Positions 2,409-45,041 of a DNA stretch of 64,000 bases are shown piece by piece. The notes below the pieces were generated by a model, which saw only the letters and a list, made by a program, of their open reading frames with translations, searched no databases and was not told where the DNA came from. The position numbers were made by a program, and so were the translations under genes. The stretch's first letter is position 1; every line of letters begins with the position of its first letter. The stretch is taken from assembly GCF_900177795.1 (NCBI RefSeq), contig NZ_FXWJ01000004.1:124001-188000 (forward strand). The letters are read 5' to 3'. Source of the DNA: Plantibacter elymi (nom. nud.) (lineage in GTDB: Bacteria; Actinomycetota; Actinomycetes; Actinomycetales; Microbacteriaceae).

Positions 2409-2448
2409 GGCCGGGAGTGATGCTCGCCCCCGAGCACCACTCCCGGCC
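2409..2448 (+). terminator. Rho-independent-like hairpin after hexosaminidase gene
   Basis: GGCCGGGAGTG and TGCTCG at 2409-2426 pair with CGAGCA and CACTCCCGGCC at 2431-2448 across a CCCC loop, with one bulged base on each side. It starts 23 nt after the hexosaminidase stop. No long U-tract follows, as is usual in high-GC actinobacteria. Confidence 0.75.
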
Positions 2449-2790
2449 TGTCGACGGGTACGCACGAAGGCGCCCCCTCCCGTCGAGATCTGCAACGTTT
2501 CGGGTCCGTTGCCCGATGCGCACCGGCCGTGGCGCGCATCGTGGCCGTCCGGGGACGACCCAGCCGGGTCCCCGTCGCCGGGAATCCTGCTGTTCATCCT
2601 GAGAGAGTGCCTCCCGAGCAGGTCATGACGCGGTTTCCCAGAACAATCGAAACGGATCTTCCTCGGCGCCAGCGACTGTCCGCGAGACACCTCGTGCCAA
2701 GATGAGGAATCGGCGTCATGATCCCGCTTCACCCGACTCTCTTGAGCGGGCACGGTGCCCGGTAGTGCGCAGCTCGCAGACGGAGGCATC
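2449..2790. other. Gene-free spacer before the sigma-factor fusion gene
   Basis: No open reading frame with a ribosome site, no RNA gene and no strong dyad was seen. It presumably carries the promoter of the downstream sigma gene, but no convincing -35/-10 pair or ECF-type promoter could be assigned by eye. Confidence 0.5.
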
Positions 2791-5016
2791 ATGAGCCTGG
2801 ACACATCCCCGGCTTCATCGCTCACCGAGCGATCGGATGCCGAGCTCATCGAGCACACCCGAACGGGCTCGCAGGATGCCTATGCGGAGCTGTGGCGACG
2901 GCACTCGAACGCCGGACGGACCGTCGCCCGGTCCGTCACCTCGAGCCTCGATCCCGACGACCTCGTCTCGGAGTCCTTCGCCCGCATCTATCAGGCGGTC
3001 CGCCGCGGCAAGGGCCCCACCGGCGCCTTCCGCCCCTACCTGTTCACGACCATCCGGAACACCGCGGCCGCATGGGGCCGGTCGCGCCGGGAGACGTCGC
3101 TCGACACCCTCGACTCCTTCGAGGACCCGGACACGAACGAGGCGTCCTCGATCGAGGCCCTCGACCGCAGCCTGAGTGCCCGAGCGTTCCGGAGCCTGCC
3201 GACCCGGTGGCAGGAGGTGCTCTGGTATACGGAGATCGAGGCGATGACGCCCGCGGAGGTCGCGCCGCTCCTCGGGATGAAGGCCAACTCGGTGTCCGCG
3301 CTCGCCTACCGAGCACGCGAGGGGCTGCGCGAAGCGTGGATCCAGGCGCACCTGCAGGCCGTCGACGACGACTCGGAGCACGCCTTCACGATCAGCAGGC
3401 TCGGATCGTACGCGCGCGGGAACCTCTCCGCCCGCGACACGGCCAAGGTCGAGTCGCACCTGGACGCCTGTCAGCGGTGCACCATCGTGGCCGCTGAGGC
3501 GAAGGAGGTCGGCTCGCGCATGGCGCTCGTGCTCCTCCCCCTCGTCGCAGGCGCCGCCGGTGCAGCCGGCTACACCGCGTGGTTGCAGGCGAACGGCCCG
3601 TCGGCGACCGCGGTCGCCGCGATGCCGGCCGGTGTCACCAGCGGAGTCGCACTGACAGCGCACCTGAGCACCTCGGTGACGGCCGCCGGCGGAGCAGCGG
3701 CTTCCGGTGCAGTCGGTTCCAGTGGCGCCGCGTCGGGTGTCGGCGCCTCGTCGGGTGTCGGCGCCGCGTCGGGTGTCGGCGTCGCGGGTGCGGCGACGGC
3801 GGGTCTCTCCGGTGGGGTCATCGCCGCGATCGCCGTCGGCGTCGTCGCGGCGATGACCGCCGCCGCACTCGTCCTGGGTCCGATGGTGTTTCCGCCGAAC
3901 GCCGACACGCCGACCTCCGGCACGGCTGCTGGGTCCACCGATCCGTCCGCCGCCCCGTCGCCGGGTGCGGCCCCGATCGCCGGCCCGACGCCGACACCCT
4001 CATCCCCGGCACCGACTCCGAGTCCGAGTCCGAGCGACGATGGGACGCCGGATCCCGTCGTGGTCTCCCCGCAGGTTCCGACGCCCACTGCCCCACCGGT
4101 CGCTCCACCCGTCGCCCCGGTCGATCCCGTCGACCCGACCGAACCCACAGCGCTCCCGGCACCGACCATGGTCGCCGACTCCGGCGGCGGGTACCTGTGG
4201 CCCACATTCAGCGGCACCGGAGCGGCCGGAGCCACCATCGACGTCCTCGACGGCGACGTCGTGGTCGCTTCGACGGTCGTGCCGGGGTCCGCGCAGCGGT
4301 CATCGATCGCCGCCGCCCCGGTGACCGGGACCTGGTCGACAGGACCGGTCGTCCTCGACCGGTCTGGGTCCTTCACCCTCACCGTGCGCCAGACCCTCGG
4401 CGACCAGGTCACCGTGTCCGCGGAACCTGCCAGTATGACGATCATCGGACCCTCGATCTCCGGATTCGAGACGGTCCTGTCGTTCCCGGTCCTGGGGCCG
4501 GACGCACCGATCATCATCAGCGGTGCTCCGAACGGCGCGATCGGGTACACGCTCGACGGAGGTGACGAGCAACGCGTCGCGCTCGACGCCGGCGGTCGAG
4601 CGACACTCACCGGCGACGCTGTCGCCGTCGGGTTCCACGAGCTCAGCGTCTGGAGCGTCGACCCGTCCGACCCATCGCGCGTGGGACCTACGACCTCCGT
4701 CGAGTACTTCTCGCTGACCGGACTCCTGAATACCGACGCCGCCGTCGATCCGGCGACGGCCCCGCTCCCGGAAGCGGTTCCGGACACCGCATCGGACGCG
4801 CCTCCCGCACCGGACGCGGCTCAGGCCGTCGTCGACCCGATCGCGGAGCAGACCCCGGCGGAAGCGGCTCCCGCGACGGAGTCGGACGTGCCGGGTCCGA
4901 CCGAGCCGGATCCGGCGACGGAGACGCCGGTTGAGACCGCGCCCGACGTCACCGCGCCGACCGATGGCGCAGACGCCTCACCGGCGCCGACGACGGACGC
5001 ATCGGCAGCGCCGTGA
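2791..5016 (+). CDS. ECF sigma factor fused to zinc-finger, membrane and extracytoplasmic-type regions
   Basis: Predicted transcription factor with a built-in regulator, 741 residues. Residues 10-100 look like sigma region 2 and 125-185 like sigma region 4 (TPAEVAPLLGMKANSVSALA). A ZAS-like motif H223-x3-C227-x2-C230 follows, as in zf-HC2 anti-sigma factors. Hydrophobic stretches lie at about 244-264 and 341-366, separated by a Gly/Ser/Ala-rich segment; a Pro/Thr/Ser-rich linker (375-455), two Ig-like regions (about 455-660) and a Pro/Glu/Ala tail complete it. The start at 2791 follows GGAGG; an in-frame start at 2755 lacks one. Similar sigma-anti-sigma fusions are known in actinobacteria (ECF52-like, from memory). 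No separate anti-sigma gene is adjacent. Confidence 0.85.
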   Translation: MSLDTSPASSLTERSDAELIEHTRTGSQDAYAELWRRHSNAGRTVARSVTSSLDPDDLVSESFARIYQAVRRGKGPTGAFRPYLFTTIRNTAAAWGRSRRETSLDTLDSFEDPDTNEASSIEALDRSLSARAFRSLPTRWQEVLWYTEIEAMTPAEVAPLLGMKANSVSALAYRAREGLREAWIQAHLQAVDDDSEHAFTISRLGSYARGNLSARDTAKVESHLDACQRCTIVAAEAKEVGSRMALVLLPLVAGAAGAAGYTAWLQANGPSATAVAAMPAGVTSGVALTAHLSTSVTAAGGAAASGAVGSSGAASGVGASSGVGAASGVGVAGAATAGLSGGVIAAIAVGVVAAMTAAALVLGPMVFPPNADTPTSGTAAGSTDPSAAPSPGAAPIAGPTPTPSSPAPTPSPSPSDDGTPDPVVVSPQVPTPTAPPVAPPVAPVDPVDPTEPTALPAPTMVADSGGGYLWPTFSGTGAAGATIDVLDGDVVVASTVVPGSAQRSSIAAAPVTGTWSTGPVVLDRSGSFTLTVRQTLGDQVTVSAEPASMTIIGPSISGFETVLSFPVLGPDAPIIISGAPNGAIGYTLDGGDEQRVALDAGGRATLTGDAVAVGFHELSVWSVDPSDPSRVGPTTSVEYFSLTGLLNTDAAVDPATAPLPEAVPDTASDAPPAPDAAQAVVDPIAEQTPAEAAPATESDVPGPTEPDPATETPVETAPDVTAPTDGADASPAPTTDASAAP
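3733..3783 (+). repeat. 18-bp tandem repeat, three copies, inside the sigma fusion gene
   Basis: TCGGGTGTCGGCGCC recurs at 3733, 3751 and 3769 (last copy ends GTC), giving SGVGA repeats between the two hydrophobic segments. In-frame period of 18 bp, so copy number could vary without frameshift. Confidence 0.85.
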
Positions 5017-42561: not shown

Positions 42562-43362
42562 ATGACCGGCATGGCGGACCTCGCTCGCGAGGGCATCCTC
42601 GTCGCCGGTGCCGGACGGGCCATCCTGCTCCAGATCGCGGACCCCTCGGTCGCCGCCGGGGTGGCGCGGCACAGCGACTTCGGCTCCCGTCCGCTCGACC
42701 GGCTGCACGCCACCCTCACCTTCGTCTACGCGCTCGCCCTCGGCACGCCGGACGAGCAGCGCAGCGCGGCCCGGCGGGTGAACCACGCCCACGCGCCGGT
42801 CCGTGCGTCGCCGGGCGAGGCCGCTCCCGGGTACTCGGCGTTCGACCACGACGCGCAACTCTGGGTCGCGGCCACGCTGTACGACACCGCCGTCCAGGTC
42901 TACGAGCTCGTGTTCGGGGCGCTCGACGAGGAGTCGCGGGAGCGCCTGCACCGTGAGTACGCGATCGTGGGGACGAGCCTGCAGCTCCCGCCCGACCGTT
43001 GGCCTCCGACCCGGGCCGCGTTCGACGAGTACTTCGCAGCCCGGGTCACGGGACTCCACGTCACCGCGGAGGCGCGTGCCGTCTCGGTCGAGCTCCTGAC
43101 CGCGCGCGCGGCGCCCCTCCTCGTCCGGTGCCTGCTCCCGCTCGTCCGGCTCGTGACTGCGGGACTGCTGCCCGACGGCTTGCGGAGCGCCTACGGGTTC
43201 CGTTGGACGCCGCGGCAGCAGCGTCGCTTCGCGCGGCGGGTCGCCGTCGCGCGGGTCGTCTGGCCGCGTCTTCCGCATCGACTCCGTGCGGCACCCTCCG
43301 CCTGGTACCTCCGGGCGATGCGAGAGCGGGATCACACGGAGGCGGCCCGCCACCCCGGCTGA
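42562..43362 (+). CDS. DUF2236/MpaB-like oxygenase family protein
   Basis: 266 residues of the DUF2236 family (ER-bound MpaB/Lcp-like, presumed haem oxygenases or their relatives). Visible family features: GRAILLQIADPSVAAGVARH, DRLHATLTFVYALALGT, RRVNHAHAPV and FDHDAQLWVAATLYDT. His residues in the last two are candidate haem ligands. No signal peptide. Substrate unknown. The gene stands alone, divergent from sucCD. Confidence 0.83.
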   Translation: MTGMADLAREGILVAGAGRAILLQIADPSVAAGVARHSDFGSRPLDRLHATLTFVYALALGTPDEQRSAARRVNHAHAPVRASPGEAAPGYSAFDHDAQLWVAATLYDTAVQVYELVFGALDEESRERLHREYAIVGTSLQLPPDRWPPTRAAFDEYFAARVTGLHVTAEARAVSVELLTARAAPLLVRCLLPLVRLVTAGLLPDGLRSAYGFRWTPRQQRRFARRVAVARVVWPRLPHRLRAAPSAWYLRAMRERDHTEAARHPG

Positions 43363-43466
43363 CGTCGTTCCAGCACCGCCCTCCACAGCCCGCTGGCAGA
43401 GCCGTCCCGTCCACATTCGGATCCTCGCCCGGCTGTTCGAGGTGCCGCGATTCGCACGATGGGGGC

Positions 43467-45041
43467 ATGACAACACACCACCTCCCCCAGACCGGCCGCC
43501 TCCTCGGCGGCAGACCGCGGATCCTCCGGCTCCTGGCGGCCGTCCCGATCCTGCTGACGCTCGTCCTCGGCATCGTCCTCGGCGGCGCCACCGCATCCTC
43601 CGCTCTGACCGCGACCGGCGCCGCCTACGGCCACCGCGACGCGTCGAACGGCCGCTGGCTCGGCTCGTGGGCCTTCGACGACGGGACGGTCGGATTCTGC
43701 ATCAATCTCGACCTCCCGATCCCGCCGGGTCACGCCTACGAGCACGTCGACGGATCATCGCTCGGGTGGTTCACCCCTGAAGACGCCGCCCGCCTGGCGT
43801 ACCTCTCCCGGCACTGGGGCGCCAGCCAGAACGCCGACGAGGCGGCCGCTGGCCAGCTCGCCACCTGGATTATCACCGGCCTGAACGGATGGACGCCGGC
43901 GCAGATCGCCGCTCGGGCAGGAGCGAGCGCCGACCGCGTGCTCTCCCGGGCCCATCAGATGCTCGCCGAGGCCGACGGACCCGGCGGCGCGAGTCGAGGA
44001 GCGAGCGCGACCATGTCCATCCAACGCGGCGAGGACGGATTCGACCTCGTCCGAACGGAACTCGCCGTCGACTTCATCTCCTCCGGCGTCACCACCCTGC
44101 CGCCGGGCACCCACACCGGCACGGTCACCCTCGACGGCGCGACCTTCGAGGACGGCACGTCCGAACGGGCCGTCGGGAACGGTGAGAGCCTGCGGATCCT
44201 GCCGAGCACCGATGCCGCCGTCGTGGCCTTCTCAGCGAACGCCACCTTCGGTGAGCTGCCCTACGGTGCCGGGCTCACGATCGCTCAAAGCGCCGCCAAC
44301 GTGCAGAGCGTCCTCATCGCCCGCCCGATCACGGTCGCCGCCGGAGCGAGCGCCGACCGCGAGCGCCCCACGCCACTCCCCTTCCAACCGATCGTCGTCA
44401 CCACCACCTCGCATGTGACGGCGACACCGGGAACCGAGATCAGCGACCGGCTGTCGGTCGGGATCGCGACCAACACCGGCCTCGCCGCGGAATGGGGCCT
44501 GATCGGGCCTGAGGGTGGACCGTACACGCCGATCCCGGTGACCGTCCGCAGCCAGCTGCTCGGTCCGTTCGCGGAGCGCCCGGTCGAGGCACCGGAGGTC
44601 CCGCTCGGAGCACCGGTGGTCTGCGAGGTCGAGACGCTCGTGGATGCAGGCCCCGGCGAGTACACGACGCCGTCCTGCATCCTCCCCGACGACGGCTACT
44701 ACGTCTGGGTCGAGCGCATCGAGCCGAGCGACACCCTGCCGGAGAACGGCGGCACGATGATCCGCCCGTGGAGATCCGCCTTCGGGGTCGCGTCGGAGAT
44801 CACGCTCGCGTCCACACCACCCGTCCACGAGGAGCGCCTCGCCGAGACCGGAGCCGACGACCGGTCCTTGCTCCTCGCCGGTTCGACGGCGACCGGAGCG
44901 CTCGCCCTCGGTGGTGTCCTACTCGCGTTCCGACGTCGGCTGGCTCTGAGTGGGCCGGCCGCGGCGCTCAGCGGACGTCGAGCAGGGGTGCGAGCTGGGC
45001 GCGGTCGACGTCCAGCCACGGCGCCGCAGGGTTCACGATGA
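43467..45041 (+). CDS. Cell-wall-anchored thioester-domain surface protein
   Basis: 524 residues. Signal/transmembrane segment at 20-46, then a TQXA-type thioester domain: Cys78 (GFCINLDLP) and Gln130 in the GQLATWIITG motif can form the internal Cys-Gln bond that lets such proteins attach covalently to host or cell surfaces. Long beta-rich repeats follow (about 165-445), then a sortase signal LAETG (458-462), hydrophobic segment (468-489) and RRR. A 35-residue basic tail after RRR is unusual and overlaps the 3' end of the convergent sseB-like gene by 74 bp. ATG 43467 is close behind a CACGAT -10-like box. Confidence 0.86.
   Translation: MTTHHLPQTGRLLGGRPRILRLLAAVPILLTLVLGIVLGGATASSALTATGAAYGHRDASNGRWLGSWAFDDGTVGFCINLDLPIPPGHAYEHVDGSSLGWFTPEDAARLAYLSRHWGASQNADEAAAGQLATWIITGLNGWTPAQIAARAGASADRVLSRAHQMLAEADGPGGASRGASATMSIQRGEDGFDLVRTELAVDFISSGVTTLPPGTHTGTVTLDGATFEDGTSERAVGNGESLRILPSTDAAVVAFSANATFGELPYGAGLTIAQSAANVQSVLIARPITVAAGASADRERPTPLPFQPIVVTTTSHVTATPGTEISDRLSVGIATNTGLAAEWGLIGPEGGPYTPIPVTVRSQLLGPFAERPVEAPEVPLGAPVVCEVETLVDAGPGEYTTPSCILPDDGYYVWVERIEPSDTLPENGGTMIRPWRSAFGVASEITLASTPPVHEERLAETGADDRSLLLAGSTATGALALGGVLLAFRRRLALSGPAAALSGRRAGVRAGRGRRPATAPQGSR

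Follow-up and report, generated by a model that had tools for sequence, protein, structure and literature searches.

The fused sigma gene and its product

We analysed a 64,000-nucleotide (nt) stretch of the Plantibacter elymi genome (contig NZ_FXWJ01000004.1, positions 124,001 to 188,000; hereafter the window), in which a single open reading frame (ORF) at 2791-5016 on the forward strand appears to join an extracytoplasmic function (ECF) sigma factor, a zinc anti-sigma domain, one membrane span and an immunoglobulin (Ig)-like tail in one chain. The frame has an ATG start and 741 codons plus stop, and is preceded by a GGAGG ribosome-binding site at 2782-2786; an in-frame GTG also lies at 2755, ahead of the ATG of the 741-amino-acid (aa) protein. 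The parts of the gene, with the basis of each assignment in brackets (AF2, AlphaFold2), were as follows.

2791..5016, + strand: fused ECF sigma / zinc anti-sigma / one-span / Ig-tail protein, 741 aa (ORF, domain matches, orthologues)
2893..3090, + strand: sigma region 2, residues 35-100 (Pfam Sigma70_r2, over cut-off)
3181..3321, + strand: sigma region 4, residues 131-177 (Pfam Sigma70_r4_2, E 4e-5, 23.5 bits, just under the cut-off of 25.7)
3394..3480, + strand: zinc anti-sigma motif, residues 202-230, with H223-x3-C227-x2-C230 (Pfam zf-HC2, over cut-off)
3520..3576, + strand: hydrophobic segment 1, residues 244-262, read as the last anti-sigma helix, cytoplasmic (ALVLLPLxxG conservation, ChrR alignment)
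3817..3873, + strand: hydrophobic segment 2, residues 343-361, predicted single membrane span (hydrophobicity, charge pattern)
3898..4170, + strand: Pro/Thr/Ser-rich stalk, about residues 370-460 (sequence)
4171..4701, + strand: two Ig-like beta domains, about residues 461-558 and 567-637 (AF2, Foldseek)
4708..5013, + strand: acidic Pro/Ala-rich C-terminus with no Lys (sequence)

The frame is not a chance one, because it was present in all 7 same-genus genomes searched, at 70–100% identity in six and in two pieces (79% and 53% identity) in the seventh, G004. Three named Plantibacter records matched the protein at 68–88% identity in the best segment. Its own genome held one copy of the fused gene (E ≤ 0.001) and a zf-HC2 match at just one further place, and in a sample of 69 genomes from the class, 16 matched the sigma/anti-sigma part (E ≤ 1e-20).

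The protein matched TIGR02937 (sigma70-ECF) with an E of 1e-18, over cut-off, and this match and regions 2 and 4 class it by sequence as an ECF sigma factor. We compared 51 full-length family members, the window protein included; pieces shorter than 280 aa, pieces of a broken copy (L078) and the short frame L021 were left out, as were the locus-end-cut frames L022 and L024, whose longer versions were kept as L067 and L069. Across these members Pfam (E ≤ 0.01) found region 4 in 51, region 2 in 50 and zf-HC2 in 38, and H223, C227 and C230 were invariant in the alignment. A zinc-region profile built from 30 of the 51 matched the solved proteins RslA (E 6e-6; structure 3hug_B, which we take to be RslA), ChrR (E 2e-4) and RsiW (E 3e-4). 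The H-x3-C-x2-C motif and this kinship to solved anti-sigma domains place the region, on sequence grounds, with the class I zinc anti-sigma domains. ChrR and RslA share that domain with the window protein but, unlike it, are proteins separate from their sigma factors. A preliminary description of this DNA had listed an ECF sigma domain, the zinc motif, two hydrophobic segments and a Pro-rich and Ig-like tail in one chain, a list with which Pfam, the sequence, and AF2 with Foldseek agree. L078 (G015:C1:1634000-1645000) is a second fused-sigma copy, broken into three frames.

A conserved two-box motif upstream of the sigma gene

Upstream of the sigma gene, the two-box motif GCGTCATGA-N14-(A/C)(G/C)TCTC occurred in both directions at 7/7 Plantibacter and 4/4 Agromyces loci. 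Read as a –35 box GCGTCA and a –10 box NNTCTC, it has a 17-bp spacer. The corresponding features of the window were as follows.

2713..2741, + strand: predicted ECF-type promoter into the sigma gene, GCGTCA at 2713-2718, 17-bp spacer, ACTCTC at 2736-2741 (motif conservation)
2603..2631, – strand: divergent motif copy, reading left (motif conservation)
2409..2602, – strand: possible short leftward transcript, RNA or short ORF (conserved in Plantibacter; ends at an inverted repeat)

The inward copy kept all 13 fixed scan letters at 11/11 Plantibacter and Agromyces loci, and the divergent copy had one mismatch in one Plantibacter, 1–3 in three Agromyces and otherwise 0. A search for the classic AAC/CGT-type ECF promoter gave nothing in Plantibacter. 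Literature searches, with subscription papers outside their scope, did not tie the string GCGTCATGA to such sigma factors (titles) and found no link of fused sigma factors to sortase proteins (titles and abstract starts). The two-way motif is a new element of the present analysis, and its role as a promoter is predicted from sequence.

The leftward stretch ends at a long inverted repeat (2409-2448) that is rich in G+C and lacks a T run; a terminator scan found none there. A conserved protein made from the leftward Plantibacter promoter was not supported, as changes by codon position in the ATG frame of 2409-2602 (12/7/4) were not coding-like. This intergenic stretch (– strand) is well conserved in Plantibacter behind the divergent promoter and may be a small RNA.

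The motif defines a small predicted regulon

A scan of the window's own genome (4.1 Mb) returned exactly three perfect sites: the one reading into the sigma gene, the divergent one, and one before an unlinked gene whose 64-aa product has a CxC motif. The third site, on another contig, has its first base 121 nt from the start codon of that gene. It was found in 7/7 Plantibacter genomes, without mismatch in five and with a single one in the other two; its boxes were conserved and its spacer differed.

G000:C5:190744-190935, – strand: gene for a 64-aa CxC...H protein behind the motif (outside the window; no Pfam match)

All 15 perfect matches in the seven Plantibacter genomes fell on these three loci. 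Between two species the 64-aa gene changed mostly at third codon positions (11/7/22), which is coding-like, and Pfam gave no family for its product. A search for the protein across 80 family genomes gave 8 matches at E ≤ 0.001, two of them in Plantibacter and six weak, and there was none in G009, a Microbacteriaceae genome that is the sole sampled representative of its genus. Aligned with four small Agromyces proteins, it gave z values of 4.2–8.5; out of 500 shuffles, between 0 and 2 scored equally well.

We then scanned eight further genomes, picked because their sigma locus had shown the motif, and obtained 21 exact matches cf. 0 for the reversed pattern, with one to five in seven of the genomes and none in G033. 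Sixteen of these matches lay in four Agromyces genomes: 4 read into the sigma gene, 1 was divergent, 6 stood before small CxC proteins that are likely relatives of the 64-aa protein, 3 stood before sortase-type surface proteins, and 2 were unexplained. The three sortase-type proteins were secreted-looking (1070, 1070 and 482 aa); the 1070-aa pair carried DUF5979 repeats and the 482-aa protein an ice-binding-like adhesive domain. G009 had exactly two exact matches, both at the fused sigma gene L042. One reads into that gene; the other reads into the gene for a divergent, secreted-looking fibre of 2597 aa with 16 Big_6 stretches, whose start codon is 191 nt from the first base of the match.

Among 59 other family loci (L135 left out), 10 had the motif at ≤2 mismatches, cf. 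a mean of 0.63 and a maximum of 2 in 30 shuffled sets. At five of these ten (L067, L069, L071, L116 and L117) the first base of the motif lay 35–38 nt before the start codon, as assigned in the present analysis, of a divergent gene for a 213–259-aa protein, and the –10 box ended 6–9 nt ahead of that codon, an arrangement resembling a leaderless promoter. Divergent proteins of ~230–260 aa formed a family (L067:5197-5952, L069:7252-8019, L116:3398-4174, L117:4408-5184, L010:3185-3871), apparently leaderless in most cases and with a GGDEF-like 'DPLTGL' stretch in several; Pfam gave one weak GGDEF_2 match (E 7e-4) among the seven divergent proteins scanned. The –35 recognition helix was closer to that of the window protein in members with the motif (0.71, n = 6) than in those without it (0.51, n = 52), a larger difference than in other regions (0.44/0.39 and 0.45/0.36).

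Several observations count against assigning this regulon to the window protein. At up to 1 mismatch the seven Plantibacter genomes yielded 46 motif matches cf. 20 for a reversed control, so only the 15 perfect matches there are informative. The motif was absent at ≤2 mismatches from 49 of the 59 other loci, and no surface-protein target was found in Plantibacter itself. The closeness of the recognition helices is confounded with kinship, and that comparison counted L010, L126 and L128, which have the motif at 2 mismatches, as motif-less.

The motif could be the site of another regulator, either a different sigma factor or a dimer that binds inverted repeats, in which case the regulon would not be that of the window protein. 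The two Plantibacter copies do form an inverted pair, as operators often do; however, single copies with the same box spacing read into unlinked genes, the 35–38 nt distance at five loci is leaderless-like, and the motif is enriched beside the fused sigma family. We consider this explanation unlikely and favour recognition of the motif by the fused sigma factor.

Relation to known fused sigma factors

In a quick tree of 69 sigma/anti-sigma parts (Shimodaira-Hasegawa-like approximate likelihood-ratio test (SH-aLRT) support only, midpoint root, SCO4117 itself absent, L124 and L135 left out), the Plantibacter and Agromyces proteins fell within a 21-row group (SH-aLRT 99), and NPCBM-tailed proteins formed a separate group (SH-aLRT 99). 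Four of the 25 G009 rows lay inside the 21-row group, the rest elsewhere. The NPCBM domain was carried by L119-L121 (E 2e-29 to 3e-27), which are likely orthologues of SCO4117 by domain order; a regulator-like gene adjoins the NPCBM-tailed proteins, consistent with the published atrA synteny.

Few signals or regulons are known for fused ECF sigma factors of the ECF48/52/53 kind. In 2018 SCO4117 of Streptomyces coelicolor was presented as the first ECF52 member to be characterised (PMC5826349), and a 2022 review treats it as the best understood case among these groups (PMC8999054). Like the window protein, SCO4117 has an ECF sigma factor, a zinc finger, a membrane part and a Pro-rich stretch in one chain, for which its authors propose proteolytic release and positive autoregulation (PMC5826349). 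It ends, however, in a carbohydrate-binding module (smart00776), whereas the window protein has Ig-like domains with no such module found, and its putative promoter motif, CSGYN-17-SRHA, differs from the window motif (PMC5826349). Its likely orthologues L119-L121 also grouped apart from the window protein in the tree. In ECF48 and ECF53, as in the window protein, an actinobacterial sigma factor is fused to a zinc anti-sigma domain; these proteins have one to two helices, and their release by proteolysis is expected (PMC8999054). Compared by description, IutY of Pseudomonas putida (ECF243) likewise has a sigma factor and a membrane anti-sigma part in one chain, with proteolytic release reported, but belongs to Gram-negative cell-surface signalling (PMC8999054).

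By sequence, the window protein has the features of the broad ECF52/53 type: a sigma factor, a zinc domain, one or more membrane helices and a long C-terminal extension, in a member of the Actinomycetota. It falls outside ECF52 in the strict sense, as Pfam found no carbohydrate-binding domain in it and its tree group lies apart from the NPCBM-tailed members. Tree placement and the published ECF48/52/53 descriptions therefore show the architecture to be of an already known kind, and the preliminary reading of a one-piece sigma/anti-sigma/sensor is upheld as an instance of it (PMC5826349, PMC8999054).

The window protein might be an ordinary ECF52 member that senses sugar like SCO4117 and controls metabolism or differentiation. 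Its architecture is the same, and its sigma and anti-sigma parts are about 42–47% identical to the NPCBM-tailed proteins. The sigma gene also has neighbours that we take, from their sequence, to be GH20-like in Plantibacter and NagA-like in one Agromyces. Nevertheless, the absence of a Pfam carbohydrate-binding domain, the two tree groups with their strong support, and the lack of the motif at ≤3 mismatches in three NPCBM members make such a role improbable, and we prefer a sensor of the surface or wall.

Membrane topology

The same two hydrophobic segments were found in most of the 51 family members. Segment 1 follows the zinc motif, is weakly hydrophobic and has a conserved ALVLLPLxxG stretch in the nine nearest sequences; segment 2 is strongly hydrophobic, with a sequence free to vary among relatives. 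On a simple biological hydrophobicity scale, segment 1 (244-262), which contains a proline, summed to +3.4 and segment 2 (343-361) to –1.3, and segment 2 was the stronger in 37 of 42 non-redundant members (the 51 less near-copies, still counting L027, L054, L073, L053, L055 and L058, in which automatic segment choice failed or was doubtful). Of these members, 27 had a net positive loop between the segments, 6 a negative and 9 a neutral one; over the 30 residues that follow segment 2, the net charge was negative in 39 and positive in 1; and the tail had exactly two Cys in 18. The ChrR profile alignment ran ungapped from the zinc motif through segment 1. As ChrR is a soluble cytoplasmic protein, the most likely reading of segment 1 is as the final helix of the anti-sigma domain. 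The tail of one relative, L066 (L066:4800-6431), ends in a third hydrophobic helix and RRRR.

The charge pattern, the alignment of segment 1 with the anti-sigma domain, the Ig folds, the paired tail Cys and the L066 terminus together make a single crossing by segment 2, with sigma inside and the tail outside, the best model. The preliminary description had ranked segment 1 (as 244-264) as the better membrane helix and called the topology odd; the hydrophobicity values reverse that ranking, and charges and the ChrR alignment point to an ordinary single span, which was one of the two options it had offered. Two points speak against this model: the inter-segment loop of the window protein itself has no charge, so the loop part of the positive-inside signal comes from its relatives, and two AF2 runs with shallow sequence input gave poor models (mean predicted local distance difference test (pLDDT) values of 44.6 and 41.1), usable for the Ig part alone and informative for neither the sigma–anti-sigma contact nor the span. 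A hairpin in which both segments cross, with the 80-residue Ala/Gly/Ser loop outside and the Pro-rich and Ig-like tail in the cytoplasm, would suit the presence of two segments in most members and the strong conservation of segment 1 among the nearest relatives, but is very improbable given that segment 1 is a poor span by score and holds a proline, that net positive loops outnumber negative ones and a net acidic region follows segment 2, the opposite of what a hairpin requires, that the Ig folds match those of extracellular proteins, and that L066 has an additional C-terminal helix with RRRR. A tail inside the cell was likewise rejected on charges, segment strength and the segment 1 alignment. 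The end of L066 resembles a sortase-type anchor, and this transcription factor may be anchored at both ends.

The Ig-like tail

Per ten residues, pLDDT was 65–88 in the first Ig-like domain, except at 501–510 (37), and 46–69 in most of the second. Foldseek was given a model of which the tail was the sole confident part, and returned mostly cell-surface Ig-fold proteins: an adhesin (4p99) at rank 1 and, interspersed with animal receptors, more adhesins or biofilm proteins at ranks 4 and 7 (7dm0, 5irb). Template-modelling scores were low, owing to the length of the model and the poor reliability of most of it. Pfam found no Ig domain in the window protein's own tail, though it did in some relatives: among the tails of the 51 members it found Big_6 in 8, Big_13 in 7 and a ricin-type lectin in 1, and among 8 further members scanned NPCBM in 3 and a ricin-type lectin in 3. 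A blastp comparison of 10 tails with 12 surface proteins showed no specific likeness of a sigma tail to its adjoining fibre; the tail of L070 alone gave matches, which were weak (E 0.002 and 0.003) and hit fibres from a different genome. The tail therefore need not bind the fibre, as no tested tail resembled the adjoining one beyond the domain family.

Surface proteins beside the fused sigma genes

In G009, 28 places matched the window protein, at which 25 full-length fused proteins were read (L042-L066). Of 21 Big_9 Ig-repeat genes in this genome (grouped by hand; 150 of 170 first-look candidates scored), 14 lay within 1 kb of one of the 28 places, and 14 of the 28 places had such a neighbour; rotated positions gave a mean of 0.80, and 0 of 20,000 reached 14. 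Many fused sigma genes of G009 stood in head-to-tail pairs with giant Ig-repeat proteins, several of which had sortase-type motif ends. By a simple pattern, eight giants of >1000 aa in the loci examined ended in a sortase-type motif. Two paralogues in G023 also adjoined giants, and on an Arthrobacter alpinus plasmid one fused sigma gene lay beside pilin genes; another gene annotated as sigma-70, seen at one end only, followed after 2.3 kb.

By gene calls at the locus, no surface gene adjoins the Plantibacter sigma gene. The only Big_9 gene of the window's own genome was rejected as a partner, as it sits in an unrelated operon, presumably MoxR/FHA/kinase-like, without a fused sigma gene. Elsewhere in the window, 43128-45041 (+ strand) encodes a likely sortase substrate, a protein that looks secreted and carries LAETG, a hydrophobic stretch and an end rich in Arg. 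It was first taken for a thioester surface protein; Pfam gave no match at E 0.01, and there was no motif upstream at ≤2 mismatches.

Proposed mechanism

From the domains, hydrophobicity, charge pattern, and motif positions and conservation, all plain in the sequence, we infer a topology, a sigma factor that reads the motif, a signal and a release step. The protein is probably, though with real reservation, a membrane-anchored one-component ECF sigma factor with an outside sensor tail that activates itself and surface-linked genes. Residues 1-190 would be the sigma factor and about 195-265 the fused class I zinc anti-sigma domain, including segment 1; 343-361 would be the only span, with the Pro-rich stalk and the two Ig-like domains outside. 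At rest the anti-sigma domain would keep sigma at the membrane. A surface or wall change felt by the outside tail may then free or expose the sigma part, through intramembrane proteolysis or a conformational change; signal and release are modelled on SCO4117 and IutY (PMC5826349, PMC8999054), and by that analogy proteolytic release is plausible. The freed sigma factor would read promoters of the GCGTCATGA-N14-(A/C)(G/C)TCTC type, with its own gene (autoactivation), the divergent transcript and the unlinked small CxC protein gene as predicted Plantibacter targets. In sister genera the same sigma factor may also drive surface proteins, a predicted set of targets that bears on the cell-wall sensing raised in the preliminary description.

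A further, tentative proposal is a switch for surface-fibre homeostasis, in which a one-piece sensor sigma, bearing outside the cell an Ig-type domain broadly like those of surface fibres, activates a fibre gene and itself from a two-way promoter, with the small CxC protein as an internal partner; the expansion in G009 (up to two dozen fused sigmas, about half beside a giant) might then be a repertoire for choosing which fibre to display.

The protein varies a known architecture, and its chief interest lies in the predicted regulon, which is small and sharply defined, and in the connection with surface proteins. One clade of fused sigma factors gains a compact, testable predicted regulon and a clear topology prediction. 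What a one-piece sigma factor controls becomes a simple reporter question, with G009 as a genome in which the module is expanded.

Another feature of the window

A ZMP/ZTP riboswitch was found at 606-724 (– strand) with 46.5 bits, over the gathering score.

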